Assembly: GCA_008508345.1 (NCBI GenBank)
Contig: QNGE01000124.1
Location: forward strand, 107,910-171,909
Direction: 5' to 3'
Length of the DNA: 64,000 nucleotides
DNA from: Paragonimus westermani
Lineage: Eukaryota; Platyhelminthes; Trematoda; Plagiorchiida; Troglotrematidae
The stretch's first letter is position 1. Every line of letters begins with the position of its first letter. The notes beneath the pieces are model-generated. The model worked only from the letters and a program-made list of their open reading frames with translations, had not been told where the DNA came from and ran no database searches. Positions 11,375 through 62,806 of this stretch are shown piece by piece. The position numbers were made by a program, and so were the translations under genes.

Positions 11375-11511
11375 TTTTCAAGTTGACCATCACTCACATT
11401 TGATCGCAGCGTTCGCATTCAGATAGACTTTCCAGCCAGCCTCTATCGGAAACCATCATTAGACTCGAGTTTCGCTCTCATTAGAGCTCGTCAGTAGTGC
11501 ATATCTTTGCC
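11375..11511 (-). mobile_element. Hammerhead-ribozyme SINE, copy A (5'-truncated)
   Basis: On the minus strand this is the 3' half of the SINE described at 48,911-49,274: ribozyme followed by the conserved 3' domain ending in GTGAGTGATGGTCAACTTG. The tRNA-like region and 5' domain are missing; homology stops just upstream of stem I, at the sequence that would be the end of the tRNA-like part. Such 5' truncation is typical of target-primed reverse transcription. Confidence 0.8.
11456..11500 (-). ncRNA. Hammerhead ribozyme, type I (copy A)
   Basis: The minus strand reads stem-I strand GCACTA, core CTGACGA, stem II GCTCT/AGAGC with AATG loop, GAAA, mini stem III and the cleavage-site C. The stem-I 3' strand is TAATGA instead of TAGTGC, so stem I is weakened. 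The catalytic core is intact. Confidence 0.75.
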
Positions 11512-11856
11512 ATCAGTGACGGGCCAGTTGTCCAGAGTTACGGTCAACTGAGTGCGAAATACTTACGTAAGAAGATCAAGACAAGCTAAACAAATAATAA
11601 ACGATTGTTCGCGGCACCATTGTGAAGCACACTGAGTTATGAACAGCCCCAGATTTTCCCGTCGTAGCTTGAATTTTTCTCCTGGTTGTTCAGCTTGTTA
11701 CTGAATAAAGAAGTGTGATGAGGAACTTCGAATTCAGTCGACCAGATTGAAAGATTTGTGGAAGTCTGTTTTACGACTCTAATAGATGTGTTTCTGTTTC
11801 TTGGAGTGAGTGGAATTGTGAACTCTCAGATCGGTTTACACGAGCGAATGTCAGTT

Positions 11857-11946
11857 TTGGCAAAGTAACCAGTTACATCATTCGTCCAACAGACACGTAT
11901 ATATATATATCTTCTCGACGGGAGATATGAATAGTTACTTTGCCAA
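11857..11946. repeat. Fold-back with perfect 13-bp arms around (TA)n
   Basis: TTGGCAAAGTAAC at 11,857-11,869 is the exact reverse complement of 11,934-11,946. The 64-nt interior holds a (TA)n run and a second small hairpin with ATATCT/AGATAT arms. Another (TA)n run follows the right arm. It may be a cruciform-prone site or a hairpin transcript; no function can be read from the sequence. Confidence 0.5.
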
Positions 11947-11949
11947 TGT

Positions 11950-13950
11950 ATATATATATATATAAATAGTTTTGCTGCATTGGAATGTACAATAATACCA
12001 CAACAACACTATCATATTAAAACCATTCACCTAGTTGTATTGATGATCACTGCACAACTGGTTTTACCTTATTCAGACATATTCTCTCGAAAAAACCTAG
12101 GGATTTAGGCGATCAATACCAGTGCTTCACTATAGATGATCAAATGTTGATCGAGTTAACCAAATGAAAAGCACGTGCAGTTTAAAACGAGTGATAATTT
12201 CTTAAAAACATCATTATCGAGAAACAAAGCGCCAGTCGAACCGAGCTTCCAATAGATAACTTAGGTCGTGCACAATTACACCAGAATATGAAGTTATCAT
12301 GAAGATATTTTACACACACAGAACAGTCCTCAAAAGATCGATTACAGTGTTCTTAGCAGATCGTGTGAAATGTGAGTCTTGTGAAAGCCGCAACCGAGTG
12401 CTCCATCGAGGTCAACCTCATGGCCATTATCTAGTGTATATATGTGACCCGAAGAGTTATGCTGGAAATAGAACTAAGTGTAATTGGTAGTAAGTATGTC
12501 AGATGAATCAAGGTAAAGCAACATTTTCCAATTGATTGTCAAGTGATGTGAATCCTTTTCAGCTATATAGCAATCACCTTATGCGATATAAAATGTGTTG
12601 AATAGTCAAAAGAAATACACTGCTTGCTTTCCTTACATACCATCATAAACGCTATTGTTTGGCTGCAAGGATTCCAACCAAACTAAAGTGCTCCGAAATT
12701 TTAAACCAACCAGAATCGTATTGCATTAACTAGTGTTTGAGAGTAGTGGGAGTGAAATTTATCCAATTATTGATAACTACCCAGCTGAGCAATGTGTAAC
12801 ACTAGCACCAAGTAACAGTAACGTTGGTAGGTGTTTTAGAAAAGATGCTCGGTCCACTCTCATAAGTTAACATTAATAATCAACTCATTATCAAAACATT
12901 AGAATAAGCTGTTCAGAAAAAATCTGTCCTATGAACACAACAGCAAAACTGATTTACTGTATCTGTTTTCTATCAAGAAGTCCGATATGATGTGCTGTAA
13001 CAGATAGATGATAAGGTACAGTCAACTCTCCGCCTGGCGCCTTTGTTGATTGTCCACTCAACTGGTACATCGCTGTTTCATCAAAGTTCAGTTAATATGG
13101 TTTCACAGTCATCACACAAGAAAACAAATATACAGCCTGCCGGGTATGCTTCGAAGCAATACATGCAATATGGGACAACATAGACAGGGAAAATTACATG
13201 GCCATCTGAGGACTAGCGTCTCGTAGAATGTGATGGGAAGCAGTTAATCATTTACTATTAAACACATTTCTGTAGTATCGCTAACTTGAATTACTGTCGC
13301 CAAATTCCCCCAAACAGGAAACAAGAAAACTCATCAGACTCAGCTGCGGAAGAAAACTATAAGATCTGTCCTACTACAAAACGAACTGCTTAAGAAGCAG
13401 GGATAGTAGTCCATCAAAGAGTACACTATGCCGATATGTAGGAACGAAAGTATTGTGTTTAAAGGAGGAAAGCCCATATATATCTAAATGTTACAATTCC
13501 TATTCCAGTACATTTCTTGCAGACCTTCTCAGATACGGTTGAGAAATGCAAATACACGGTATGTAACATGAAACATCTGAACAATGACTCACTGAGTCGT
13601 GTGGAGTGCCAGTGATGGAACCGGAACTAGCGAGATGCAACCGCAACATATTCTGTAACGGAAGATATGACTTCACCTTGACAAAGCGAGACTATTGCTG
13701 GTCCAGTGAGCACTGCGTTTACTTTAAAAGTAGAAATCGGAATAAAAGTGTTGTATGATTTCATAGCTTGGTTGACAGAACGTTAGTCACGGTTTCTTTC
13801 GTTTTTCTGATTTTAGCCGGAGTCTAGTCTTTGGTATACTGCTTTGTGATCAACTAATCTATACAAATATAAGAGATGTGTCGATGTGGTGAACGATCTC
13901 ATTGTCCAATACTCATCAGCAGGCCAAATACATACTTGTATTCATACGTG
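11950..13950. other. Stretch without a recognised gene
   Basis: No domain, RNA gene or repeat family that I recognise. The only ORF over 60 codons (12,299-12,490 plus) has no familiar motif. Confidence 0.45.
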
Positions 13951-14154
13951 TATGAAACAGTGTTGTCAGGGCGAAACGAAGGAAACAAGTAATCAGTTCG
14001 ATCAGTGGATGTGTTCCACGCAAGATCGATAGTAAGAAGACCTGGAATGGGCTGTCCCCACATTTTAGCAGCTTTTTTCCTCTGACGCAAAAAGGAAATT
14101 TCATGAACTTTCGGGGTGGTAGATCCATGAGAATGGGCACATGGGTGTTTTCCG

Positions 14155-14775
14155 ATGAACTGCCGTTCCTACGCACAACAAGTGCAAAATGGCTACCCGG
14201 AACTTTCTGTAGACGAGGCTATGAAGCTTCACAAGAAAAAGGACAAGGTGCCCCTGATAGAAAAGAAAACAGTGTATATTTTGTTGCCATCCAGAGGTGA
14301 CAGGCTTGCTGAAACAATAATTGGGAGACTCAATAACGTCTCAACAAAAAGTTCTATGCTACCAGATTGTGAGTTTACTTCAGCCCTGCGGACAGCTTTA
14401 TGTCTACGGCTAAAACATGAAATACCAGTTTCTGGAGCTTCCTGTTTTGTATACTCATTTGTCTGTTCATGTGGAACCAGTTACATGGGTCACACGACTA
14501 GGCTCTTAACTGAACGTGTTGATGAGCCCCATTCAACCTGGATCAACACTGGAGCCACCAACACAATTACCAGCGCAACTGTGGCATCTTTTAGATTCAC
14601 ACCTCACCATCAATCCGGCCCCCTATTTCCGTCCGAGTTGCCGGATGAAGGGCGGCCAGCCAAAAGCCGTGATGCCCAATTTTTACCACAGCTGGGGCGG
14701 CCAACCCAGGTTTGTGCGCGTAAAAGCGCTCTGTTGAAGTTTTGCGGTTGCAATGACCTAGCACCCAAACCATGA
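14155..14775 (+). pseudogene. PLE linker plus GIY-YIG endonuclease ORF, C-terminus degraded
   Basis: This 206-codon open frame from ATG starts with the block VQNGYPELSVDEAMKL and continues with VPLIEKKTVYILLPSRGD, the linker motif of this PLE family. The nuclease core SCFVYSFVCSCGTSYMGHTT then RLLTERVDEPHSTW follows, with the paired CxC before the Y-M-G turn and the RV.E.H-like helix (E-H now E-P-H). The C-terminal AIRLRNP..CAQK block is recognisable only as QVCARKSAL, so the last third has been scrambled by small indels. It is probably inactive, because the upstream RT is missing. Confidence 0.7.
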
Positions 14776-14936
14776 CTGACCAGAATGGTACGGTTTCGGT
14801 CACGTCACATTTGTGACGCAATTGTATCGAAACTTCGTCGTCATATGTATCGACTTTATGTTCGACCTCAAGTGAACTGGCTGCTTGTTTTATTGGTTTC
14901 ACCCTAACAACAATGTTTCATTCAAATGTTGTGTAA

Positions 14937-14978
14937 TTGGCCTGGGGATGACTAACCGAAAACGAGCGTGTTCGCTAC
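14937..14978 (+). ncRNA. Hammerhead-like PLE tail, degenerate (copy 2)
   Basis: GGCCTGGGGATG stands where CCTGATGA is found in copy 3, so the first catalytic box is mutated. The second half is intact: CCGAAAACGAGC then GTGTTC and GCTAC, forming a short stem III and the stem-I 3' strand. It is a probable dead relative of the motif at 22,063-22,103. Confidence 0.45.
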
Positions 14979-14989
14979 ACCGATTATTC

Positions 14990-20882: not shown

Positions 20883-21768
20883 CTGTAAATGAAGGTCTCA
20901 TCTGCTGTCTGAGGTTATATTTACTGTTAAAAATATCAGTGGATGTGTTTGCTATGAACTGAAAATCGACCGAGACCTATTGCAGCTTTTGTACCCAGAT
21001 GAACTTTCTAGCCAATCCCTTTTGAAAAAAGGTGCTAAACTCAGGTTTCACCTCGGTTTAACTACGTCAGTAGCACACAGTCGCATCAAAGTCGAAGGTG
21101 GAACTTTGAGTGTTTTCGTGAGATATCTTTGTTAGTCACTGTCCCACTGACCCTATATTAAGCGTGGCCGAATTATCATTTTCAAAGTCCCAGTCAAAAG
21201 TACTTGCTAGTTGGACTTTCCTCTAGTGGTCGTCGCCTGAGTTCAACATGATAGTTAATTTGACTCCAGTCGAAGCGATCGGGCAATCACAATACTACTC
21301 ACACACGCGTGTGGTTTGTTGGTCACTTGTGATACTCCGAGCATGGTCATTGCAGCCATGTTTAACGCGGTTGATGAAGTTGAAATCCCCGACGTGTGAA
21401 GCATATACCTAACCAACAAACACTAACAAGAGCAAGACTGAAGTAAAGAGCTTTTTAGAGTCAGCTGACAGAAAGTACTGTGGAGATTCCAAGGCTGTGA
21501 TCGAGGATGTAGAATTCAGTTCCTACACATATATAGTACACATGTATTATACACCCTGTAGGGACAGTAATACAAGAACAGTAAGCATTTTACTGTTAAT
21601 ACTTGTACAATGCATGGCTCCACAACCAGTTATCGTAAACATCTAAGTGAGTTCATTACTACTTGTTGCACTGAAACCTGTTTAAAATGCGGTCAATCTT
21701 CACGACCTAGTAAAACAATAATTTGACAGACCATTTTAATATGTGGGATACATTCAAAACAGGTCAAA

Positions 21769-22103
21769 GGTCGTATACTGTCAACTGCAGAGGCCATCGC
21801 AATTCGCCTATACTCACCACCACTGTGCGCTCAAAAACGACTAATCAAAACGTTGAATCTTCCATGGCCGTGTGCGCAAACCCAGGATAGAATGACTGCG
21901 TAGATATGACGCATCGCTCGCAGACTTCGTACAACTCACGTGGACAATGCTACGTAACTAAGTCTCATGACTCAAGTCAGACAAAAACTGTTGACTGACA
22001 TCTTTCGCTTTAATGATATGTTATCTACCACCCCCATCTAACCCATATAAATGTGTTGTATTTAGCCTGATGATGAAACACCGAAAACGAGCTTGTTCGC
22101 TAC
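21769..22103 (+). mobile_element. Penelope-like element copy 3, extreme 3' end only
   Basis: A 45-codon frame (21,769-21,903) encodes the C-terminal PLE block RILSTAEAIAIRLYSPPLCA, then QKRLIKTLNLPWP, ending in its own TAG. It is followed by an untranslated tail and the hammerhead-like motif at 22,063-22,103. Upstream the nuclease core is not recognisable, so this is a strongly 5'-truncated copy. The family-specific C-terminus LNLPWP is shared with the copies at 30.1 and 62.6 kb. Confidence 0.8.
22063..22103 (+). ncRNA. Hammerhead-like ribozyme motif in PLE tail (copy 3)
   Basis: The strand reads TAGC, CTGATGA, a short spacer TGAAACACC, GAAA, then ACGAGCTTGTT, C and GCTA. TAGC pairs with GCTA (stem I). 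The last A of GAAA plus AC(G) pair with (T)GTT to make a minimal stem III, leaving C as the cleavage-site base. Stem II is the weak point, with only TG/CA able to pair. Penelope-like elements are known to carry minimal hammerheads in their terminal repeats; assignment here is by pattern only. Confidence 0.55.
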
Positions 22104-26413: not shown

Positions 26414-26630
26414 AGACTCTGTAAGCAGTGTGTAGATGACATCATTGCCAGTGGTGTTCACTGTTTCTAATTTTAAACACTCTGAAAACCGACTTTTATG
26501 TTTTTTTCCATAAAGAAGTAACAGATGACAGTTTTTCTTCTCTAAACTTTTTGCTCACTAGAAAACGATATGGCTCATTACAATGTGCAGTGCATCGCAA
26601 GACTCCATTCAAGTTCCCCCTTTTGACCGG
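26414..26630 (+). mobile_element. Possible PLE reverse transcriptase fragment (copy 7)
   Basis: Two short blocks suggest a decayed RT: CVDDIIASGVH near 26,429 (a YVDD-type catalytic box with its alanine/valine neighbourhood) and LLTRKRYGSLQCAVHRKTPF near 26,549. The second has the layout of the conserved FLDVLITR..DGSL.T.VYRKPT block that follows YVDD in PLEs. Stops lie between them. No nuclease or tail follows; a decayed SINE sits directly downstream. Confidence 0.45.
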
Positions 26631-26634
26631 GCTT

Positions 26635-27000
26635 GTCAGTAGTGAATACAGTAGTCACGGCCAAGATTCGAACTCAGACCATATTTTGTTGAAACAGCCA
26701 TGTTACCTACTGTTCCAGTGTCCTTTCATTAGAAATGACCGAGTTATCGCAAGTAAAGGTATAGTCACATTCACTTGTGAGTAGTGTTCAGATTGCCCGG
26801 TCATCCAGACGGAAGGCACAGTCACCGACCCTATATTATATATGTCTGTAGTATTATATGCAAAGACTCGAATCTATAGTTCCACCGTGGCAAACAGATG
26901 AAATGATAACGCGCCGTAACAAGGGTCTAACTGGAAATTCTATGAACATGCAAGAGGTGCGATCAGTTGTGAGTGATGTTCAAAGGATTCAAATCAGAGT
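26635..27000. mobile_element. Very decayed ribozyme SINE, two opposed pieces (copy I)
   Basis: The minus-strand tRNA-like part is recognisable at about 26,637-26,680 (CACGGCCAAGATTCGAACTC against CACGGCCGGGATTTGAACTC in good copies). The 5' domain continues to about 26,835 (GATTGCCCGGTCATCC, CACAGTCACCGACC). From about 26,863 a plus-strand 3' half begins (GACTCGAATCTATAG ... GTGCGATCAGTTGTGAGTGATGTTCAA). The ribozyme core is not preserved. The opposed arrangement resembles the younger head-to-head pairs at 48.4 and 51.2 kb. Confidence 0.5.
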
Positions 27001-27004
27001 CCCC

Positions 27005-29500
27005 TACTACGTATCAGACTTTATAATTTTTTCGCGTTCCATCCGTTTTAGAGAACGACGGTGAAAAACAACTGTTTTCAATCCGTTTTCATCAATTCAA
27101 TAAAGTTACGTATTTCCAACAAAATCGAATCTATATTAGGTCAGTCGAAATTAAATCAATCCCCGCTGGTCGGCGTAATACAGTAAAAAATGTGTACAGA
27201 CTAACAGAGATTCTTGTAGTGTTTAGTTTGATCTGATCACTGGTTACAGAAAAGAGTTGTTTTGTTACCGCTCATCTACATCTGAATGAGTATTTCCAAG
27301 AGAATACTGTGCTTAAATGCTAGCTTTTCCTGTTGGTTTCCTGTCAGTGTTTGCTCAGTTCTCCTGTAGACTGTGTCAATTTTTATTTGTGATTATTGCT
27401 AACACATTAATGGCCAGTATTTTGGTGGCCATCCAGTTCCCTAAATTGAGGAATTTTCGGTATACTTGTGAGTGACCCACCAAACTATACCGCACGATCA
27501 ACGTGGATAGAGTAACAACCTTACCCGTTTTCTCACTTATACAATTTACCATAAAACCAATGAAACTATGAAGTGATGCTAATTGGCAGAAACAAACGCA
27601 TACATGGGTTGTTCGTAATACATACCCGTTCAGTTCTGTTTCCAGCTTCACAAAGCAGTGTGTTTATCGCCTTACGAGATGCTGGATCAAATTTAGAAGA
27701 GTTTAGTTCTGTCACTCTGTCCGACTATATCCAGTGGAGATTTACTAAGAGAGTTGGGTCCGAAACAGCAACTGACAGACAGTTTTGTGGGTGACACCTT
27801 GGTCGGTGTACTGCACTGCGTGTGAGAACCCTTTTTTGGAATCACTATATTTATCTGTTCTTCTGAATGTTACAGGCCATCTCAACAGTCATTCTTATCA
27901 ATCTGTCTGCCCCAAAGTAGTATTTTAACATGTGCATCTTCTACTTGGGTTTTTCCAAATCCATTCAAATTATAGTTCAGTTTTGCACTGGGGCAGTTTC
28001 CTGACTGAAGAAAGCTCATTTGATCAGAAGTCGCACACAGGCTGCTGGAAACCAGATCGCAGTCAATTGTTCCCAATCAATCAGAAGTGTCGATCAGCTG
28101 GTACATTGAATAATGCTATTCTCCTACGCAAAGAGTAGTATCATTCAAATAAACAGAGACGGCTTAGTACCAATCTACTCTAGATTTTGGAAGCCTGGTG
28201 CACGATACATTTGACTAATGGGAAAATACTGAAGGTTTGCAACTGAGGTTTTCCAGTGATATAACTAGACCTGTGAATAATCTAAGAGGCAAGTCAGTTA
28301 GCTCACTTGTTCCAATTTCGCATACGATTGCGTTTGAGTCTCTCTCGTGTGTACTGTTTAGTGGAACCCGAACTATTTTGCCAAGAATAAAGAAGCTTAG
28401 CACACCGTTAAGCAAACAGGGTTGAAACTTTACGTTTCCTTAGTAAATCACTGTATCCGCCTGCTTGCTGTGTTTGAATCAAGGGTCTTGTCTTTAAAAA
28501 TGATGAACACTAAGCCTAAGGAAAACAAGCGACCGGTGTACACTTACACCGACAAAGCCATATAAATCATTACAAACGCGCAGGTGATCATAATTTGATA
28601 GCCAGATGCTTCGAGGAAGGTATTGGACGATTATTTGGTTGCGTAAACGAAGTGCGTACTGATAAACAGATTGGGAATAACACAACGTTTCGAGCAAGTT
28701 GTAATACTCTACGTTTCAACCACCTCGGGTGGCCTCCTCAGGAGTGATGTAATCGAAACACGACGCCCAAACTATTCAACTTCATTCGTACTACATTCGG
28801 TGCGGATATATTACAGAAGTGCTTACTCATCTGGCTGTTTGAGTAATGGGTGTGTTGATGAGTATAGTACATGAATTTCCTGGTTTGATTATGGGACAAC
28901 CGAACGGATGAAATCCTCGGTGTTAACACGTGACTACCGGGCAAGTGGATACCCATAGTCATCTTATGAACCGTCACTTTGATACTGAACAAACAAAAAT
29001 GCCATTCACTTGCAAACCTATCAATCATGAACCGATTATTGCTTAAACTGTTACACAAACAACTGAATCTGTCTTTTGAAAAACGTTTTCTGTGAGTGAA
29101 TCAGATGCAAGTATCACGGCAAAAAAGAACTTACCTAAAGCTGCCATATTCGGAGTTGATCAATTTTTAAACACAAAACTCAAGACATAGAAAAAGATCG
29201 TCGTCGTAACGTTACTGCATAGAAACATCATAAGTATACTGATGATTAAGGAAGTAAATAACTGGAATATCCATACTACTACTGACTATCCCACTTGATT
29301 ATAATGCAGTTGAGCAACTTGTAAATAGCTGAGTTATTTGTCTAGTATGTGATATACCAGTGAACAGCTACTGAACGTGGAATTTGTTTGCAGAGTGTGT
29401 ATCATACCTACATGTGTTTATTTACGTTTTTGTTAAATTAAACAGTACGAAATGATTATCGGTGAACAGGCTACAGGTATCTCCGAATGTTTTTTCGCCA
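27005..29500. other. Stretch without a recognised gene
   Basis: Several 60-106 codon frames on both strands overlap one another (27.4-27.8, 27.9-28.1, 28.2-28.4, 28.5-29.1 kb), none with a recognisable motif or convincing splice boundaries. A small hairpin, CGGTGTA/TACACCG with a 4-nt loop, sits near 28,533. Confidence 0.4.
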
Positions 29501-29713
29501 CTGATGAGTAGTCGGGGATTTGGTTTATTTTCAAGTTGACCATCGCTCACATTTGATCGCAGCCTTCGCATTCGGATAGACTTTCCAGCCAGCCTCTTCC
29601 GAAAACAAGCAATAGACTCGAGTTTCGCTTTCATTAGAGCTCATCAGTAGTGCATATCCTTGCCGCGGTCAGGATTTGAACTCCGGCCATTCCAATCATG
29701 AGGCAACCGTGTT
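29501..29713 (-). mobile_element. Hammerhead-ribozyme SINE, copy B (5'-truncated in the tRNA-like part)
   Basis: Read on the minus strand, it starts inside the tRNA-like region (AACACGGTTGCCTCATGATT), runs through box B, the ribozyme and the 3' domain, and ends in the tail AATAAACCAAATCCCCGACT ACTCATCAG. That tail is shared with copy G at 51,218 and is absent from copies C, E and F, so two 3'-end variants (subfamilies) exist. The 5' domain is missing. Confidence 0.85.
29609..29653 (-). ncRNA. Hammerhead ribozyme, type I (copy B)
   Basis: The core boxes CTGATGA and GAAA and the cleavage-site C are present. Stem I (GCACTA against TATTGC) and stem II (GCTCT against AAAGC) each have one mismatch. 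The copy is probably older or less active. Confidence 0.7.
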
Positions 29714-29928
29714 GTTTTTTGTGTGACTATTTATATGTATTCACGAAACTCCACCTGAATCCAGAGTTAGTAATTTGCCCAATATTTCTGTGGATTCATT
29801 CGACTCGTTAGCCTAGTTTGCCGTTCATTATCTGTCAGTATGTGCGAACATTGTACAGCCTTGGAATTAATATTTTTCTTTATTTATTTCGTTCGAAAAT
29901 ACTCATTGAAGTCATGAGAATGACAGAG

Positions 29929-29970
29929 TGGCGAACAAGACTTGTTTTCTGTGTTTGATCGTCGGGCTAA
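29929..29970 (-). ncRNA. Hammerhead-like PLE tail motif (copy 4, 3' end)
   Basis: The minus strand reads TTAGC, CCGACGA, ATCAAACACA, GAAA, ACAAGTCTTGTT, C, GCCAC. Stem III is better than in copy 3: five pairs, AACAA/TTGTT, with a GTC loop. The first box has U4 changed (CCGACGA), so cleavage is unlikely in this copy. Confidence 0.5.
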
Positions 29971-30064
29971 TTACAACACAATAAATATGAAAACAGTGAC
30001 TAATGTGAGTCAGATAAACGGTCAATATAGGTTAAGGACGACGTGTTTGTTATCAGTTACGTGA

Positions 30065-30376
30065 TCACTGTTCCAAATCATGGGCTTGATTGATTGTGGG
30101 CCAGGGGAGGTTAGGTATCCGCACGAACTTTTTCTGAGCGCAGAGATCAGGGTTGAGCAATCGGATGCTGATGGCTTCGGCAACGGTCAGCATTCGAAAT
30201 CTCACCATTTTTGATTGATTCCTTGGCACTCGGTAGACAATCCGAAAAGCATCTTTCTTACTGACAGAATGACTGAAGTCGATCAAGTTAGCAACAATTG
30301 CGCTTGAAACCGTTTTAATCACACCACTGTTCAACCATGCAGGATGGTGTTCACGCACTCTGTCCGACGCATTGGG
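30065..30376 (-). pseudogene. PLE GIY-YIG endonuclease, C-terminal half
   Basis: An open frame reads DRVREHHPAWLNSG, then SSAIVANLIDFSHSVS, then RFRMLTVAEAISIRL and NPDLCAQKKFVRIPNLPWP, ending in a stop at 30,065. It matches copy 6 (62,103-62,669) block for block. The N-terminal GIY motif is not recognisable upstream, because the frame is broken before the RVREHH helix. Confidence 0.75.
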
Positions 30377-30463
30377 TAACCACTCTACATGAACACTTCT
30401 TGTAGAAAGTCTAGCTCAGCTTGCAAAGTATCAGAGGTGCAGATCTTTACCCCCCCCACCCGT

Positions 30464-30570
30464 CAGGCATCTTATGAAGTTTAGCTTTTGATTTAGCGGA
30501 ACAAAACTATCGAAGTGAATGTACTGGCCACTCCAAGTCTGTTTCCTGTACACCGTTCGTCGAATTGACC
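30464..30570 (-). pseudogene. PLE reverse transcriptase C-terminal fragment
   Basis: The frame reads SIRRTVYRKQTWSGQYIHFD followed by SFVPLNQKLNFIRCL, the strongly conserved PLE block after the catalytic YVDD box. A C-rich run (30,451-30,460) lies just downstream and the frame is then lost. Only about 35 codons remain. Confidence 0.75.
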
Positions 30571-30620
30571 ATTTTTCTGACCCACATTTGTCACTTTTTT
30601 TCATATTTATTATGTTGCAA

Positions 30621-30666
30621 TTAGCCTGATGGTGATCAAACACATAAAACAACTCTTGTTTGCTAC
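30621..30666 (+). ncRNA. Hammerhead-like PLE tail motif (copy 4, inverted terminal copy)
   Basis: The plus strand reads TTAGC, CTGATGG, TGATCAAACACA, TAAA, ACAACTCTTGTT, T, GCTAC. The stem III arms (AAACAA/TTGTTT) and stem I (TAGC/GCTA) pair. A9 and G12 are changed and the cleavage base is T, so it is a degraded but recognisable partner of the motif at 29,929. Confidence 0.45.
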
Positions 30667-30762
30667 TCTGTCGTTCTCATGACTTTATTTGGTTAATGAA
30701 ACAACCCGTCGGTCCACACTTAAGATTAGCGACAGCTATTATTTTATATAGTTCTTTGAGCA

Positions 30763-33690: not shown

Positions 33691-33882
33691 AAGTGCTCCC
33701 TGCAGGTTTAATGAGATCTGTGACTTCGACCTGTCTTGGAAGTTCTAATCGCGGGGTTATCGGTTGGAGTTGACAGGACAGTTACTTTGTCTCCTCTCGA
33801 GACGATCAGGCAACCTGATCACTGCTCACAAGCGAGAGTGGTTGAGCGTTCAAATTTGATAATTCGGTCGTGTCTAATGTGA

Positions 33883-33957
33883 GGTCAATGGCGCGGTGGT
33901 TAACACGGTTGCCTCATGATTGGAATGTCCGGAGTTCAAATCCCGGCCGTGGCAAGG
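33883..33957 (+). promoter_or_regulatory. tRNA-like region with pol III A and B boxes (copy C)
   Basis: Box A is TGGCGCGGTGG (consensus TRGCNNAGYGG with one change). Box B is AGTTCAAATCC (consensus GGTTCGANNCC with two changes), embedded in a CCGG...CCGG T-arm-like hairpin. It is not a functional tRNA gene: the arms do not fold into a full cloverleaf. Confidence 0.65.
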
Positions 33958-33961
33958 ATGT

Positions 33962-34006
33962 GCACTACTGACGAGCTGTAATGAGAGCGAAACTCGAGTC
34001 TAGTGC
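33962..34006 (+). ncRNA. Hammerhead ribozyme, type I (copy C)
   Basis: Stem I GCACTA/TAGTGC is perfect (six pairs). The core boxes CTGACGA and GAAA and cleavage-site C are intact, with mini stem III AC/GT around TCGA. Stem II has one G-G mismatch (GCTGT/AGAGC). It probably still folds. Confidence 0.8.
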
Positions 34007-35782
34007 TTGTTTTCGAAAGAGGCTGGCTGGAAAGTCTATCTGAATGAGAACGTTGTGATTCAGTGTGAGTGATGTTCAACTTGAAAATTCTGTTGCTCTT
34101 TCGATTTGCATGCCGAATTTTGGATATTTTATAACTGCTTCGCTTCTGAACTAACAAATCCGGCGAACTACTTATCAGTAGGTAGCAGGATAAAGCATGA
34201 CTATTAAATGGGCTCCATTAATTAACCTGAATGGACAGCCGCAATGATGTTTAAGTGCCTTAAACCCAGCAGATGTTCGGAGCCCGGGATGTATTTTCTT
34301 CCTAAAGCCTCCATGAAAGTATCCTGTGGATCGATTTTTTGCGTACACAGGTCACCTTAACACAAACTTGAGCAGTGGTTGGTCGCTATTTCAAGCGGGT
34401 CGTTAAAAATGTTAGACAGTTGTGTCAACGTTTAAGTGAAACTTACCAGTGAATTAGAACAAATGTTTTGCTGGTTTCCAGGTTAATTAAGTTTTAACTA
34501 TAATGGCAGAGACAATTTGAAGTGATATTAGTTGGAACATGTTTGAGACTGGTTCATCTGGTGTAGAGTGTTATGAGTGTGATGAGTGAAACTTTACCAA
34601 TAAAACAAATTACAAGTTGCTAGCAAGTTGTTTGGAAATTGCGAAGTGTTTCAGTTGGTTTACAGAACGATGTGCATAACGAGGTTGTTGGCTGAGTGAA
34701 TACAGTCGCTCCTAACCCGGTTGAACAGTTTACCGAACAAAGGCCCCCAAACTGTCTGCTTGTACAGAATTAACTGTGCCCCAAGTTAAAACTGCACTCG
34801 ATTACACAGCAGTCTTCAAAGGCATGTCACTTTCGGTGTCCTAGATCCACTTCCTTAATGCATAGTCCGAAATGAAAATTTTAATGGATCCCTTAAAAAG
34901 TTCGCTCTCTTTGGTAATCCACTTACAGGGAAGTCCGTTAACTTGACGATCAGTTAAAAAAATAGCATTTTCCAGGAGAAAATGTGTATGTTTGTCAGAC
35001 CGTCTTAGTTGGCTTGGATGGACTTAAAAACTAAGCGTGACCCAGAATTAAACGGCCGGATTCAACCTTATCTATAAAGTTCAGTAAATCCTTTAGTTTT
35101 GTCCCATTCTCTAAGTGGTTCGCTTGGTTTGGTGAAACTTTCCTGTCAGACTCAAAGTTTAACAATGTCAATTTTCTGAGAGAACAAATTGACTTCGTGA
35201 CATTACCTTATTGTCAATCATATCATTACCCAAAACAGCCGGGTACACGATTTTTTCAATAAAAAGTAATGAGCACCCATCAGATAATCCGAAAGAAAAT
35301 ATTATACCACTTTACTAATTAATATGTGATTCAAACATAACAGTAACAATTGGACACGTTTACTAAGTGATTGTTTGTCATTACGCGCATCAAGAGATAT
35401 CACGTGACATTATAAAGGATTCGTCACGGTCGGTACCTGTCAATCGGACTTTGTTATCAGTGAAGGTTTGGAAATTACATTACCTCTAACGAGTACGTTT
35501 ATGCAATAAACAATGAACTGTAATATTAACCTCACATCAAATTTGGACAATTATTTGCAAATGTAGTGATAACTTGTTGAGTGGTTATCAACGAACGAAC
35601 AGAATAATGCGAGATTGTAAGTGACCTAAAGGATTGTAAGAGTCACGGTTGAGTTTAACATCCTAATTATTACAGAATGACGATACGGGTAAAGTGGGAC
35701 AGACATGTCTGAAGTCTATTTCGACTCTTCGGTTTTGGCGTTTAAGACTAGGTCGTGATTAATCTGTTTAATCTAGTCAACC

Positions 35783-47518: not shown

Positions 47519-48457
47519 CTGTGGAGAGGAAAATCAACATCTTAGAATATTTTGCATAACCCATAGAAGTTTTGGATGCGTCCCTAATCTGTTTTGTCCA
47601 AAACTTACCTCAGAAATACTTATTTTGAAGAATTGTAACTCTTCTTGTCAACTGTCACATAGGCAAACCCGAATCGCTATTCGCTCAGTCTTATTTTGAG
47701 GACGTTTCTAATTCCCCGAACAAGTGACTGCACTCGTTTTGTCCTGGCCGGGTGAAAAAAACATCAGCTTGGCTGTGATATCACCGCTCTTGGGAAAACA
47801 AGGCTCTAGACAGAAATCCCAATAACAGGAAATACGCTTCACCATATGCCTGTGATCCAGCTTAGGAATCTAGCTGCTATGAAGTCTTCCTGCTGAACAC
47901 TTTCGTGTCTTAGATGAGTGACGGACACAGTGGGACTATTTTGTGGTTTGGTTTGTACTTGTGTGGTGTAAGAGTTACATCGAAAACATGTCTGAGCTAT
48001 TGGAGAACTGGCGCTGCTACATAGGCTTAGCCCAAACATTTAATGCGGAGGAAGTGTTGGCAAACAATAGGTACAGTAGAAGACGAAGATACTATAAAAG
48101 TTTTAGAACAAACATGGATTAAAAGTGGGAAAGGGCTGTAGTGTAAGTAAACGAAACACTTGTGGCCGTTTACAGTAACTCCTACCGTCACCAGCCAGCT
48201 CCATCATAGTAGATAGGCTGGTAAAACAACACTTCACCTCAAGATAAATACCGCCATCACACTGAGCAGATCTCCGTTTCCTTGGTTTCTCAGCTTGAAA
48301 TTTCTCTCTCCTTTGGCTTCATCTGTAATGCAGACATCTAAACAGACTTGATTTAGACAGTGTGTTGATAACTGTCATGATTGCCTCACTTTGAGTTGGA
48401 TTGAGCAAACAGGTTTAAACACAAATAGAATCTCCAGCCAGCCCCTTTCGAAAAGAA

Positions 48458-48502
48458 GCACTAGACTCGAGTTTCGCTCTCATTAGAGCTCGTCAGTAGT
48501 GC
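48458..48502 (-). ncRNA. Hammerhead ribozyme, type I (copy D)
   Basis: Core boxes CTGACGA and GAAA, perfect stem I (GCACTA/TAGTGC), perfect stem II (GCTCT/AGAGC with AATG loop) and mini stem III are all present. It is identical to the copies at 49,137 and 51,326 over the core. Confidence 0.85.
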
Positions 48503-48595
48503 ATATCCTTACCACGGCCGGGATTTGAACTCCGGCCATTCCAATCATGAGGCAACCGTGTTAACCACTGCGCCATTGACCTCACATTAGGCACG

Positions 48596-48705
48596 NNNNN
48601 NNNNNNNNNNNNNNNNNNNNNNNNNNNNNNNNNNNNNNNNNNNNNNNNNNNNNNNNNNNNNNNNNNNNNNNNNNNNNNNNNNNNNNNNNNNNNNNNNNNN
48701 NNNNN
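48596..48705. other. Assembly gap (110 N)
   Basis: The unknown bases lie exactly at the centre of the head-to-head SINE pair, where the left side ends with the start of the tRNA-like region on the minus strand and the right side resumes inside it on the plus strand. Palindromes of this kind are hard to assemble, so the true length may differ. Confidence 0.95.
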
Positions 48706-48763
48706 CACGGTTGCCTCATGATTGGAATGGCCGGAGTTCAAATCCCGGCCGTGGCAAGGATAT

Positions 48764-48808
48764 GCACTACTGATGAGCTCTAATGAGAGCGAAACTCGAG
48801 TCTAATGC
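48764..48808 (+). ncRNA. Hammerhead ribozyme, type I (copy E)
   Basis: CTGATGA core, perfect stem II, GAAA, mini stem III and cleavage-site C are intact. The stem I 3' strand is TAATGC, giving one mismatch against GCACTA. Confidence 0.8.
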
Positions 48809-49057
48809 TTCATTTCGAAAGAGGCTGGCTGGAAAGTCTATCTGAATGCGAACGGTGCGATCAAATGTGAGTGATGGTCAACTTGAAAACAAATAGAATC
48901 TAAAATATCGCCTTGCAGGTTTAATGAGTTCAGTGATCTCGACCTGTCTCGGAAGTCCGAATCGCGGAGTCTCGAGACTATCGGGCAACCTGATCATTGC
49001 TCACAAGCGAGAGTGGTTGAGCTTTCAGATTTGATGATTCGGTCGTGTCTAATGTGA

Positions 49058-49132
49058 GGTCAATGGCGCAGTGGTTAACACGGTTGCCTCATGATTGGAA
49101 TGGCCGGAGTTCAAATCCCGGCCGTGGTAAGG
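49058..49132 (+). promoter_or_regulatory. tRNA-like region with pol III A and B boxes (copy F)
   Basis: Box A TGGCGCAGTGG fits TRGCNNAGYGG exactly. Box B AGTTCAAATCC fits GGTTCGANNCC with two changes and sits in a hairpin with GGCCGG/CCGGCC arms. A CAT triplet lies between the boxes where an anticodon would be, but the anticodon stem does not pair. Unusually for a SINE, this promoter lies about 150-190 bp inside the element. Confidence 0.7.
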
Positions 49133-49136
49133 ATAT

Positions 49137-49181
49137 GCACTACTGACGAGCTCTAATGAGAGCGAAACTCGAGTCTAGTGC
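49137..49181 (+). ncRNA. Hammerhead ribozyme, type I, canonical (copy F)
   Basis: Everything required can be read: stem I GCACTA/TAGTGC (six pairs); CTGACGA (fits CUGANGA); stem II GCTCT/AGAGC with tetraloop AATG (five pairs); GAAA; a two- to three-pair stem III (AC, loop TCGA, GT); and C as the base 5' of the cleavage site. Predicted cleavage is between C at 49,175 and T at 49,176. The tiny stem III matches the architecture of the schistosome Sm-alpha hammerhead, whose monomers are inefficient and may act as dimers. Confidence 0.9.
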
Positions 49182-49265
49182 TTCTTTTCGAAAGAGGCTG
49201 GCTAGAAGGTCTAACTGAATGCGAACGCTACAATCAAATGTGAGTGATGTTCAACTTGAAGACGA

Positions 49266-51206: not shown

Positions 51207-51785
51207 TGTTCACTTTACTGATGAGTAGTCGGGGATTTGGTTTATTTTCAAGTTGACCATCACTCACATTTGATCGCAGCGTTCGCATTCAGATAGACTT
51301 TCCAGCCAGCCTCTTTCGAAAAGAAGCACTAGACTCGAGTTTCGCTCTCATTAGAGCTCGTCAGTAGTGCATATCCTTACCACGGCCGGGATTTGAACTC
51401 CGGCCATTCCAATCATGAGGCAACCGTGTTAACCACTGCGCCATTAACCTCACGTTAGGCACGACCGAAACATCAAATCTGAACGCTCAACCACTTTCGG
51501 TTGTCAGTAATGATCAGGTTGCCCGATCATTTCAAGAGAAGACACAGTAACTGTCCTGTTAACTCCAATCGATAACCCCGCGATTAGGACTTCCGAGACA
51601 GGTCTAGATCACAGAACTCATTAAACCTGCAAGGCGAGAGTGCAAGCGAGAGTGGTTGAGCTTTCAGGTTTGATGATTCGGTCGTGCCTAACGTGAGGTC
51701 AATGGCTCAGTGGTTAACACGGTTGCCTGATGATTGGAATGTCCGGAGTTCAAATCCCGGCCGTGGCAAGGATGTGTTCACTTTA
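51207..51785. mobile_element. Head-to-head pair of ribozyme SINEs (copies G and H) with 11-bp target-site duplication
   Basis: Copy G (minus, about 51,218-51,636) is full length. It ends at its head (CTCATTAAACCTGCAAGGCG) and is joined directly to copy H (plus, about 51,640-51,774), which is truncated at both ends: it starts within the 5' domain (CAAGCGAGAGTGG) and stops just after the tRNA-like region. TGTTCACTTTA at 51,207-51,217 is repeated exactly at 51,775-51,785, so the pair seems to have inserted as one unit. Confidence 0.8.
51326..51370 (-). ncRNA. Hammerhead ribozyme, type I, canonical (copy G)
   Basis: On the minus strand it is identical over the core to the ribozyme at 49,137: perfect stem I, perfect stem II, CTGACGA, GAAA, mini stem III and cleavage-site C. 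Confidence 0.88.
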
Positions 51786-54160: not shown

Positions 54161-55100
54161 ATGAGTCTACAAACGTATCGATGGTACCACTTTGAGATCC
54201 AGACCCAACTACAGATTTTGTCGAAAACGACCGTTGATAAAGTCGAATTATGATGGTTAATGAGTTGTAGAGGAATTTTTGTTGAAAAATTACAAACACC
54301 ACTGAAAATTGATTGCACCCTTTGTGTTCGCACAAACTTTTTCAGATAGCCCATTCGAAATTAGATAGTAGAATGTAGTTTCATTCCTGTAATAGCATCA
54401 ACGATCGAAATGCCAGTGGACAAGTACAGCTACTTATGATTTCCACTGAAAGAATGGTCCTAGACGTGGGAACATCGGATGGAGTTAACAAAGGAGGTGC
54501 TGTGCTTCTTCTCGAAAATAGCGGACAAACTGGGTGTCTATCAAGGGTGAATGTGGTTGCGTTTACGTGCGATGTTTCAGGCTGTATAGTGTGATCAGTA
54601 CGGTTGTATCTTAACAGCTTGGCCAGATTTTAAATGCAGAAAGTAACGAACAATTGCACTACTGACCAGTTCCAACAAGAGTGACATTCAAATCTAGCGT
54701 CTCAGTTTCCGACGCTTGAATTTGTATCCGGTTTACGTAATTTGGTCACCAGATTGTTTTTTTGGTCAATTGTGCGATATGACGTAACTCTTTTCACATA
54801 CTTTGCTACAAACGGTCGCAGCCGGTTGCTCGAACCGGCCAAAACTGCGAGAACTCCGACTGTTACAAATGTGAAGTTTTATGATTTTTAATCTCGAACC
54901 AACATTCGACCAGGTCCGTTGTTTTCCCTGCATAGTTTCGTCAACAACAAGCAGTATAAACTTGTCAGTATTGTCCAGGTGGAAGAGGAATAGTTTCGCC
55001 ATTACACCGTGGGTGAGTAGAATTAATCATCTCCAGCAGGAGTAATTTGGTTATGACAAGATTATTTCGGTTGGCAACACTGTGAAATGCTGGTTCCAAG

Positions 55101-57644: not shown

Positions 57645-59440
57645 CTGATCGAGTCAGCCTCATGCGCAGTCAGTACTGGTTTTCAATTCGAATGCGCTCA
57701 CCCGCACATCTCGAAATCCGTGTGATTACTTGCAATGTCTAAAAGTGGTCTTGTCAGCACAGGTTTCTTGCGACTAGAGTAACAGATCATACGCTTTCCA
57801 TGCCCGTATTTCCGAAAGGCTAATCCAAAGGGTCACACATTGCGTTAGTTTAGAACCTGTGATTCGTTCAATGACGCCGTGTTCGGCGATTAGCGAAGCG
57901 ATGATCGAAACGTGAATAGTTCTAACAATTTACCAGTTGTCCATATGGCACGCTGCCTATCCTAATTAGTCGCAAAAATTGAGATCAGGGAAAGACAGAT
58001 CATAACCATTAGAGTAGATGATCCATAAACCAATACAGTGTATTAAACGGAAATTACTAACCCACGGACCAGAAAATGATCGGGGGCATTTCCAACTACT
58101 GGCCCAGTAAGCCAGTGATAAAAGAAATGAAGCAAAACGTTAACAGTTAATTTACTCTTATCAGTTGTGAACAAAGAACATCAGTTTGTATTTAGCATAG
58201 GGCTGGCAAAAATAAAAACCACCAGCCCTTGAGCTTTACCCAAAATGATCTGTTGTTTTCAGTTCCAGAGCAGGTAAACCACCCTAGTCAACGGTTTACA
58301 CATACACAGGGCCAGGCGACGATTATTGACTGGCATTACGCCGGAGAAACTGGACAATCTAGGGCTTCGATTACCCACTAACACGTCAAACGAGTTGACC
58401 GGGTCAACATTGTGACCAATCGCTATTATGCCTTGAAGTGGATGAGGTCAGGCTTTTGATCTCACGTTCCGTTATCACTGTCGGCTGCGTCATCACAGGC
58501 ATCAGTCAATGGAATATGCGCAATCCTCTTTTGTCAGAGGCGTCCATTTGTTCTGCCGATGCAGACGTCAACACAACTGCAAATGAACCGATAGATTGCA
58601 TGATAGATGTGATAACTTGGTAAGATACTGATGTGGACAGGTTGAACAACATTCTGAATTAAAAGTGGCTGACTCATTTAAGCTGCATTTCATCAGCAAG
58701 CCAATGTAAACTATAATTTACAACTTGCGTCTGTCATGATACGGTCATCATAGAAAGGCGGTGTTAAAAAACCTTGCTTATTTACTATATACATACTTGT
58801 CTTGTTCACTCTTCGTTCGGTGAGAATATCGACAAAATTCTGACGTATAGGTTTGCGATTAGGGCGTTCGTTAATATTGGAAATATTTGTGAACCACTGC
58901 TCTTATGAGGCCTCGACTTTGCACGGCTAGCGTAAACCACTACCTAACCTCCTAGAAATTGGCATCCGGGCCACGTGACACCATAATAACCGCTACCCAT
59001 TCTGATAAGTAGGCATGTCTCCAACTGCCTTCGATATACTACTCACAAACCAAACTGGGCATCTTACTGTACCCTTCTTGGCAAAAGCAACACATCTAAA
59101 GACCCACCTACAATGAAGTTTGTCGCGACGACAAACTTATGGTGTAACCACTCGTTCGGGTTAAGGACATTCCCGTCAGACCGAACCACCTTTTAATCCA
59201 TATGTTTCTTCTGAGACTAAGCATGAGGACAAATGGCAGTCTCATGGGATAGTTCACGTAAAACTTGACGACATATCTGACTGACAAGTGTATCGTACAA
59301 TTGATAATTAAACTTAAATTTTCTCACTGAACACAGCAGATTCTCTAGAGTGTTGGGGAAAATAAAAATTTTGACTAGTTTGAGCTTACCATTTTACACG
59401 TGAAACGGATGTGAGTGATGGAAAACTAATGTTTTTTTCA
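57645..59440. other. Stretch without a recognised gene
   Basis: No recognised repeats or domains. The small plus-strand frame at 58,438-58,623 has no familiar motif. Confidence 0.4.
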
Positions 59441-61865: not shown

Positions 61866-62054
61866 TACCGTATAGGCGTTCTCCGCGAATATCCGCCGTA
61901 AACAAGCATTTCTGTTCCAATCATGTCATCAGTACATATCCTCATAGCTCTGTGTGTTAAACTAAGAACGAACTTTCTCTTCTGTCTGAGCGGTACGTAA
62001 CTGAAAAAGTGAGTATACTGACCGTTCCAAGTCCCCTTCCTGTGAATATCTCTC
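61866..62054 (-). pseudogene. PLE reverse transcriptase C-terminal fragment (copy 5)
   Basis: Translating the minus strand in one frame gives RDIHRKGTWNGQYTHFFSYV, then PLRQKRKFVLSLTHRAMRIC, then TDDMIGTEMLVYGGYSRRTP. These match the block that follows the catalytic box in PLE RTs (YRKPTWTGQYTHFDSF...RARRIC..D). About 60 codons without a stop, so this piece is fairly young. It points away from the GIY-YIG fragment that starts about 50 bp to its right. Confidence 0.75.
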
Positions 62055-62102
62055 GTGGATAAACAAATGGAACTGATGTAACCAAAAGTTAGGCTCCTAT
62101 CT

Positions 62103-62669
62103 GTGGAAAAGAAGTCCGTTTACATGACGCTAGACTACAAAGGCGATGCCTTGGCCGAACTGGTGACTCGTGGAATACTTAACGCAAATGAAAAGACCTA
62201 CAGCGCGGCACAACTGAGAATCACATTCGGATCAAACATGGTAGTCCACGTACAACTCAAAGATACGTTGCCTAAATGTGTGACTTCATTTTGTGTTTAC
62301 TCCTTCACATGCTCTTCTGGAGCAGGTTTTGTCGGTCGCACAACCAGGCGCCTTTCTCAGAGGATACGTGAGCACCACCCCATTTGGCTAGCTAAGGGCG
62401 AGGTGAAGTCCATTTCGAGTGTAATTCCGGTGCACCTTGTAGACACAGGGCACCAAATCTCCCCGGAAGTGGCTTTCCAGTCCATTTACCGCCTGCCCAG
62501 CGGTCATTCTAGAGGAGTCAAATTTCGTGTTCTGGCCATCGCGGAAGCGATTGGAATTCGGTTGCGCAATCCACAGTTGTGCGCTCAGAAGAATTTTGTT
62601 CAGGCTCTACGGTTACCTTGGCCCCCCATTACCCACTTGACAACTCCGGATGTCAGTTTTGTCACCTAA
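62103..62669 (+). pseudogene. PLE linker plus complete GIY-YIG endonuclease, best-preserved copy (copy 6)
   Basis: This 188-codon open frame starts in the linker (KKSVYMTLDYKGDALAELVT, then YSAAQLRITFG) and runs through the whole nuclease: CVYSFTCSSGAGFVGRTTRR with the GIY-YIG-like motifs, then LSQRIREHHPIWL, the catalytic-helix region, and AEAIGIRLRNPQLCAQKNFV, then LRLPWPPITH and a stop. No upstream RT in the same direction remains, so it is a 5'-truncated insertion and not an autonomous gene, although this domain could in principle still be translated. Confidence 0.8.
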
Positions 62670-62764
62670 TTGTCCTCCACTTCACAACCGTTTGATGTAG
62701 TTGAGTGATTAATTGCTCTTGATTTTTTCTCGCCTGACAACCATGATGGTATAAAATGTTATGT

Positions 62765-62806
62765 ATTTAGCTCGATGATGAATAACCGAATACATACTGT
62801 TCGCCA
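62765..62806 (+). ncRNA. Hammerhead-like PLE tail, degenerate (copy 6)
   Basis: TTTAGCTCGATGATGAATAA, then CCGAATAC and CTGTTCGCC correspond position by position to the motif at 22,063. The first box (CTCGATGA) and GAAA (now GAAT) are both mutated, so it is a fossil. Confidence 0.45.

Follow-up and report, generated by a model that had tools for sequence, protein, structure and literature searches.

The hammerhead motif at positions 49,137-49,181 of the window (the whole 64,000-nt stretch of Paragonimus westermani DNA analysed here) lies within a 431-nt repeat, and both the ribozyme and the repeat are real and very abundant. The best explanation is that this repeat is probably a non-autonomous hammerhead retroelement, retrozyme-like and resembling Sm-alpha, which is integrated by the machinery of Penelope-like elements (PLEs); the PLE partner, the cleavage and the RNA circles of the 431-nt element are presumed from patterns in the DNA. 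Elements of this kind are already known (Sm-alpha, retrozymes), and what is new is the Penelope-type footprint of the insertions, together with evidence of a template that was either circular or multimeric.

The hammerhead motif

49,137..49,181, + strand: hammerhead ribozyme of copy A, fully paired, predicted cut between 49,175 and 49,176

Read directly, the sequence contains all of the hammerhead parts claimed in the first-pass annotation, in order and in place. Stem I (GCACTA/TAGTGC) is followed by CTGACGA, stem II (GCTCT-AATG-AGAGC), GAAA and a loopless stem III of 4 bp (ACTC/GAGT), and the cleavage-site C is at 49,175. The motif thus has the features of a type I hammerhead, namely the CUGANGA and GAAA core, three stems and an NUH cleavage site. 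A 25-nt core with up to three mismatches occurs seven times in the window, compared to zero times in 100 dinucleotide shuffles, and a general hammerhead descriptor detects five window sites, four of them in the 431-nt repeat family (mean of 0.07 sites per shuffle, n = 100 shuffles). The six other window copies had been said to keep the core, and CTGANGA...GAAA is indeed preserved in all seven. Three hammerheads (A, B and E) are fully paired; the others carry one mismatch in stem II (C), one in stem I (D), one in each of these stems (F) or two in stem I (G).

The proposed covariance-model check had a divided outcome: the best Rfam clan match, Hammerhead_HH9, is significant (E 2e-5), but at 36 bits it is below the curated gathering score of 52. 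With a limit of E ≤ 1, Rfam matches six of the seven window copies, the exception being copy F, and none of the seven reaches a curated gathering cut-off. The type I model is listed for copy G only (24.4 bits, gathering score 34), a listing limited by the omission of weaker overlapping clan matches from the Rfam output, and the stem sequences of the 431-nt element differ from the Rfam type I consensus. HH9, an amniote-type intronic hammerhead, has the stem II GCUC/GAGC in common with copy A, but differs from the 431-nt element, in which stem III has no loop.

Folding likewise bore out part of the expectation, since stems I and II appear in the best fold of a 74-nt monomer but stem III is absent; the stability of this fold is like that of shuffled sequences (z -0.26). 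When two motifs are folded together, two hammerheads are predicted, with a common 8-bp stem III formed from the palindrome ACTCGAGT. Because stem III is present in the dimer and missing from the monomer, the predicted cleavage may require tandem transcripts. A parallel is drawn with the newt ribozyme, for which such a dependence is described in the cited section (PMC6155905).

The repeat unit and its pol III-type boxes

49,064..49,074, + strand: pol III A-box match TGGCGCAGTGG, consensus match
49,108..49,118, + strand: pol III B-box match AGTTCAAATCC, 10 of 11 consensus places
49,185..49,188, + strand: TTTT, a possible pol III stop, which follows five of the seven window hammerheads

The hammerhead had been placed directly after an A/B-box region, and this is correct, with a gap of 18 nt between box B and the ribozyme. 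The box starts in copy A are 44 nt apart, a tRNA-like spacing, and all four window matches to the A/B-box pattern are in the 431-nt repeat family; the boxes were assigned with what are taken to be the A-box and B-box consensus sequences. No tRNA is found in the element head by ARAGORN at default settings, a relaxed score gives poor folds only, and no Rfam tRNA match is obtained at E ≤ 10. A tRNA-derived origin of the head is plausible. The TTTT at 49,185-49,188 could end a pol III transcript, giving a tRNA-like-plus-ribozyme RNA of ~135 nt that is distinct from the mobile 431-nt RNA. Weak Rfam matches to IRES_Cx43 (58,135-58,337, + strand) and to an MS2 hairpin (49,078-49,112, − strand) are far under their gathering scores and were taken as chance.

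The unit length of 431 nt is the tandem period in locus L013, and the unit is circularly continuous. In unit coordinates (u), the boxes occupy u229-239 and u273-283, the hammerhead occupies u302-346, and the predicted cut follows u340. The GC content is 47.6%, the longest stop-free frame is 53 amino acids, and the predicted monomer fold is 63-64% paired; a 373-nt piece spanning copies D and A folds with a z of -1.80. Searches of viral contigs and of bacterial and archaeal genomes with exact element patterns gave no match. The annotation as a simple tRNA-derived SINE is not sustained: the 5' end of a classical tRNA SINE is a few nucleotides before box A, whereas the present unit runs ~190-230 nt upstream of box A and joins its own 3' end. 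A plain SINE was rejected for this reason.

Abundance, template form and sequence constraint

The genome search covered 823,446,929 bases in 9,701 contigs. An exact 33-nt core pattern, which leaves stem I out, occurs at 3,268 places in the whole 823-Mb genome (1,603 + 1,665), and the reversed pattern at none. A search with 49,050-49,250 yielded 1,748 first-look candidates, and scoring of 40 of them gave 46 matches; the best-scoring matches outside the window form 38 loci of ~2.6 kb each. These loci were picked by score, and therefore their layout and ribozyme intactness are not a random sample. In these best-scoring loci, 37 of 46 core-bearing regex matches have all six pairs of stem I and a stem II of five, and at least two of the 46 lie outside the 431-nt repeat family.

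Five seamless tandem joints were detected in four loci, with an identical linker in four joints and a few different letters in the fifth (L045). These joints account for five of the seven cases of same-strand neighbours within 100 nt; the remaining two, both in L033, are old copies joined through other sequence. The first 100 of the 3,268 cores in contig order include ten neighbour pairs less than 2 kb apart, six head-to-head, four head-to-tail and none tail-to-tail, and all four tandem neighbours are exactly 431 nt apart. Five single copies (L010, L017, L029, L032 and L035) are one turn long, at 428-438 nt, and have their start and end at about the same place, which is one of two points. In the 37 loci, ends within 3 nt of the cleavage site are found for none of 52 3' ends and one of 52 5' ends. 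A linear cleaved monomer was considered as the reverse-transcription template and rejected, since hardly any copy ends at the cleavage site. The seamless 431-nt tandems imply a template that is multimeric or circular, and a circular or multimeric RNA is therefore supported as the template for reverse transcription.

The tRNA-like and ribozyme parts of the repeat are comparatively well preserved. In copies A, B and C, 7 of 129 columns are variable in the tRNA-like region and hammerhead, compared to 37 of 214 in the flanks (p 0.0013), and with D and F added the figures are 10 of 103 and 18 of 77 (p 0.021). Among 51 genome arms, the mismatch rate within the region used for the search is 2.1% in the tRNA-like part, 1.9% in the hammerhead and 4.4% in the 3' part. 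Mismatches in the hammerheads of genome arms number 8 of 600 at the 12 catalytic places and 35 of 1,650 at the rest. In a set of ten hammerheads, three of them old, both partners have changed in 5 of 15 stem pairs. As many such pairs arise in 9 of 500 shuffles, and there are 0-2 in slid controls; further pair types are no more numerous than in shuffles, 381 of 500 of which have at least that number.

These data bear on whether the hammerhead is a fossil, a motif that hitch-hikes in the repeat and is inactive or unneeded. In favour of this are the sub-threshold Rfam score, the loopless stem III and the broken cores of the old window copies. However, the thousands of exact cores, the lower divergence of the hammerhead than of the neighbouring 3' sequence and the compensatory stem changes speak against it, and this explanation is considered unlikely.

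Copies in the window

48,433..48,595, − strand: copy E, inverted arm facing D across an N gap; hammerhead 48,458-48,502, fully paired
48,706..48,893, + strand: copy D; hammerhead 48,764-48,808; 5' side lost in the N gap 48,596-48,705
48,908..49,260, + strand: copy A, without a 38-nt internal stretch found in B and C
51,215..51,637, − strand: copy B, 422 nt, nearly one turn, with a long 3' tail; hammerhead 51,326-51,370, fully paired
51,643..51,776, + strand: copy H, the inverted arm paired with B; its 3' end is internal and precedes the hammerhead
51,207..51,217, no strand: TGTTCACTTTA, resembling a target-site duplication, on the left of the B-H insertion and repeated at 51,775-51,785
33,698..34,088, + strand: copy C; hammerhead 33,962-34,006, one stem II mismatch
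29,500..29,713, − strand: copy F, 5'-truncated, with a long 3' tail; hammerhead 29,609-29,653, with mismatches
11,375..11,512, − strand: copy G, 5'-truncated; hammerhead 11,456-11,500, two stem I mismatches
20,979..21,505: old head-to-head pair J/J' (J 20,979-21,189, −; J' 21,224-21,505, +), from the profile search
26,629..26,983: old head-to-head pair I/I' (I 26,629-26,831, −; I' 26,921-26,983, +), from the profile search
54,295..54,712: old head-to-head pair K'/K (K' 54,295-54,385, −, weak, E 0.0023; K 54,457-54,712, +), from the profile search

The older and much more diverged copies were located with a profile of eight young copies, and their hammerhead cores are broken. Five of the six neighbouring pairs in the window are head-to-head (chance 0.005 at 1/4 each). 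A snap-back origin of the arms was ruled out, as B and H differ at 13 of 136 positions and E and D at 5 of 128; the arms therefore look as if they were copied from different templates or have diverged since.

Copy A is head-to-tail with copy D, with a short linker between them. This linker, at 48,893-48,916, is ~24 nt shorter than usual, and the missing part is roughly the segment between the two 3' termini S and L (vide infra), so that it looks like a copy ending at S joined to a copy starting at L. The 110-N assembly gap at 48,596-48,705 lies within the E-D inverted pair and hides its junction. E-D was also considered as an insertion with its own 12-13-nt duplication, but the same letters recur in the D-A linker, and E-D-A was therefore scored as having no outer repeat; its borders by eye are ACAAATAGAATC on the left and ACGAATGGAATC on the right. 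A tail-like ACAAATCCGGCGAACTACTTATCAGTAGG is present at 34,150-34,182, ~60 nt past the 3' end of copy C, and may be an interrupted or second tail.

Insertion anatomy

Layout was scored in 42 clusters, comprising 37 genome loci and five window stretches, one each. L028, which has the same insertion as L022, was left out, as was a 43rd cluster, the old copy at 20-225 of L036 (76% identity); L036 contains two abutting head-to-head pairs with a shared plus-minus border and was counted once as head-to-head. The L022 and L028 insertion, head-to-head with identical flanks on two contigs, may reflect a segmental duplication or an uncollapsed haplotype. In this best-scoring sample, 20 of the 42 clusters are head-to-head and 22 are single or tandem, and none contains a free-standing tail-to-tail pair. 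In three of the 20 head-to-head clusters (L040, L041 and E-D), an N gap separates the two facing arms.

Outer direct repeats of at least 8 nt flank 12 of the 20 head-to-head clusters, compared to 6 of 380 control cross-pairings, and are absent from the other eight. They are mostly 10-15 nt long, and the median over all 20 clusters is 11.5. Such repeats were found at 4 of the 20 testable single or tandem clusters (the other two having N flanks) versus 8 of 380 controls. The 3' ends of the 52 arms fall largely into two windows, with 27 in a short window S (u424-u7), 22 in a long window L (u15-36) and three elsewhere. Both outer ends are at a terminus in 14 of the 20 head-to-head clusters, and at least one is internal in the remaining six. 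Of the 14 scorable pairs, 13 combine one S with one L end, one has two L ends (L031) and none has two S ends; 13 of 14 has a chance of 0.0009 if the ends are independent. The distance from S to L is 16-34 nt by BLAST borders, with a median of 29.

Two alternatives can be assessed against this anatomy. The first is an ordinary pol III SINE, similar to Sm-alpha and mobilised by a LINE, with head-to-head pairs arising through twin priming, which is known for LINEs, and tandems through read-through of tandem loci. The A/B boxes with tRNA-like spacing and the 5'-truncated copies are compatible with this, and the internal ends in six of 20 head-to-head clusters are what twin priming would give. However, the unit extends well upstream of box A, and by eye the listed 3' ends have no poly(A) or microsatellite tail. 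The 14 clusters in which both outer ends are element 3' termini count further against a LINE, because one linear RNA with internal twin priming would not produce them, and so do the S/L alternation and the occurrence of the same ends in two PLE inserts of this genome, in a comparison that covers PLEs. This explanation is rather improbable.

The second alternative, satellite-like amplification at the DNA level with inverted pairs and tandems produced by recombination or assembly error, is very improbable. Metazoan hammerhead repeats were originally termed satellites, and the N gaps between the arms of three clusters would be in keeping with assembly error. Against this, the copies are dispersed over many contigs, the head-to-head pairs have outer repeats, the flanks differ by eye from locus to locus except for L022 and L028, and 49 of 52 3' ends fall in two defined terminus windows.

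Penelope-like elements

62,082..62,669, + strand: PLE endonuclease-region ORF, candidate mobiliser lineage; GIY-YIG Pfam match below cut-off
29,909..30,685, − strand: PLE remnant whose 3' segment recurs in inverted form (29,909-30,026 and 30,564-30,685)
13,881..14,983, + strand: PLE remnant whose 3' segment recurs in inverted form (13,881-13,999 and 14,874-14,983)

The anatomy of the 431-nt element was compared with that of PLEs. In the cited parts of work by Arkhipova and colleagues, the pLTRs of PLE inserts are found in direct and in inverted orientation, the commonest arrangement being head-to-head, and one of the inverted pLTRs may have an additional 31-bp tail; partial tandems and, in the examples given, duplications of 8-10 bp also occur (PMC3846280). 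In the window, the PLE ORF adjoins an inverted PLE piece at 61,880-62,053 (− strand) and has 34 protein matches, two of them named, both from Paragonimus westermani and 55% and 43% identical. Pfam searches with five window ORFs gave sub-threshold matches only. When the window is compared with itself, the inverted duplications separated by less than 1 kb are those of the 431-nt element or of PLE remnants, the sole exception being a weak self-palindrome at 11,857-11,946.

In the genome, at least 12 of 150 scored PLE matches (24,684 first-look candidates) contain stop-free frames of 803-872 amino acids. Sixteen PLE loci were chosen by long open frames or PLE matches, and inverted repeats are found in eight, direct repeats in eight, both in three and neither in three. 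Ends were read in five of the eight inverted-repeat loci (L063, L069 and L074 being left out), and two of these five inserts have the full footprint with an above-control outer repeat. L065 is head-to-head, with a 13-nt outer repeat and a tail 28 nt longer on one arm, and L071 has a 12-nt outer repeat and a tail 27 nt longer on one arm. L070 has a 9-nt outer repeat, equal to the maximum of 20 control pairings, and a tail difference of ~38 nt, and L064 and L066 have no outer repeat at their ends.

The 3' tail of one PLE family (L064 and L065) resembles the S-L segment of the element in reverse complement, and by eye the long arm of L071 does as well. This likeness is reached by 0 of 300 dinucleotide shuffles for each of L064 and L065 and, for L065, by 1 of 20,000 simple shuffles. 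Of the 20 PLE 3' flanks, the remaining 18 show no clear S-L match (best 6 of 300 shuffles), and scores nearly as high occur at unassigned positions, L068 5,721 and window 81. As 20 flanks and two orientations were tried, the likeness is a lead and not a proof. No chimeric pair of a PLE and the element was found in the 38 loci and five window stretches; PLE pieces lie in L021 and beside copy F, not abutting the element.

It is improbable that the repeat represents the terminal repeat (pseudo-LTR) of a PLE, dispersed in solo form with a PLE-associated hammerhead, even though its anatomy is the same as that of PLE pLTRs, in which hammerhead motifs occur according to the cited section of a review (PMC7761336). 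A unit copy is present downstream (506-887 nt searched) of one of eight window PLE pieces, and this is the 5'-truncated copy F near 30 kb, while the five PLE ends that were read carry other sequences. The present hammerhead has a stem III and is accompanied by pol III boxes, unlike the PLE motif. As generally reviewed, the latter is minimal and has neither of these.

Two further observations concern hammerhead-like motifs at PLEs. A minimal motif at ~28,700-28,745 (28,741, − strand), with CTGAGGA, a 7-bp stem II, GAAACGTA and almost no stem III, is one of the five descriptor sites in the window (0.07 expected), and like motifs are reported for PLEs. A conserved stretch of 40-55 nt is found shortly 3' of PLE endonuclease ORFs (22,049-22,103, 14,924-14,978, 29,928-29,980 and 62,754-62,793), and in some copies contains CTGATGA...CCGAAAAC, a degenerate hammerhead-like sequence as reported for PLE pLTRs.

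Comparison with known systems

The Sm-alpha and Sj-alpha elements of schistosomes were reportedly described by Ferbeyre in 1998 and Laha in 2000. Compared by description, as given in the sections cited below, they too are high-copy fluke repeats with a very short stem III. The likeness to Sm-alpha put forward in the first-pass annotation is upheld in the order of parts, a high-copy repeat with pol III-type boxes followed by a type I hammerhead with a short stem III; in Sm-alpha, according to the cited part of its description, boxes A and B also precede the ribozyme (PMC2576457). However, the Sm-alpha unit is given there as 335 bp (PMC8490949), compared to 431 nt here, and its head is recognised as tRNA-Gln-derived in the section cited (PMC2770079), tRNAscan-SE being the program applied to Sm-alpha, whereas ARAGORN at default settings and Rfam at E ≤ 10 make no tRNA call for the present head.

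Metazoan retrozymes, as outlined in the cited parts of three sources (PMC4918200, PMC7761336, PMC7229834), are similar in that their tandem repeats, a few hundred bp long, contain type I hammerheads, and the seamless 431-nt period likewise consists of tandem units bounded by type I hammerheads. Duplications of more than 4 bp, a GC content below 50%, the lack of a long ORF and an apparently circular or multimeric template are also shared. The same sections give retrozymes as typically ~150-400 bp and more than 70% paired, which are typical values rather than a definition, whereas the present element is slightly longer and has lower predicted pairing. It is also stated there that retrozymes seem to have no promoters, whereas the present element has pol III-type boxes, and head-to-head pairs with S and L termini are not among the retrozyme features described in them.

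The insertions have a parallel in PLEs, as portrayed in the cited part of PMC3846280. Head-to-head arms, an optional ~30-nt tail on one arm and duplications of ~8-13 nt are common to both, as are partial tandems and 5' truncation, and the head-to-head arms with duplications and the ~30-nt tail on one arm are those of PLE-type integration. Unlike PLEs, the 431-nt element has no RT/GIY-YIG ORF, and its hammerhead has a stem III and is accompanied by pol III boxes. Among the titles and abstracts listed in searches of open-licence literature, none describes insertions of the PLE type for a hammerhead SINE or retrozyme.

Proposed mechanism and implications

Under the retroelement explanation, transcription of the copies would be driven by the internal pol III-type boxes or be due to read-through. 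Ribozymes in tandem transcripts may then cut after u340, either singly or as dimers that form through the palindromic stem III, and this would yield 431-nt monomers that could be ligated into circles. A circular or multimeric RNA would serve as the template for reverse transcription, as supported by the seamless tandems, the one-turn copies and the scarcity of ends at the cleavage site. A Penelope-like RT/endonuclease, a presumed enzyme with an observed footprint, would prime at both of the staggered ends of the target, with S and L as alternative sites ~29 nt from each other, and the joining of the two cDNAs head-to-head would leave duplications of ~12 nt.

A more specific version, in which the RNA circle is a Penelope client and a PLE RT/endonuclease copies circular hammerhead RNA from both target ends at two priming sites, is proposed tentatively, with somewhat less than even confidence. 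The same tentative standing applies to its joint corollary, that the priming sites flank a terminal signal of ~28 nt shared, in inverted form, with one PLE family (CTGATGAGTA...GGGGATTT).

According to the cited part of a review, animal hammerhead retroelements show no conserved motif that reveals the mobilising retrotransposon, and PLEs are likely mobilisers on the grounds that they share type I hammerheads with these retroelements and occur alongside them (PMC7761336). The insertion anatomy described here supplies a mark for the mobiliser, in the form of head-to-head arms, alternating S and L ends and duplications of ~12 nt, and this mark is common to the element and to some PLE inserts of one genome. 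The element also offers genomic evidence for a circular or multimeric template. If the Penelope-client reading is true, it would name the autonomous partner of animal retrozymes.
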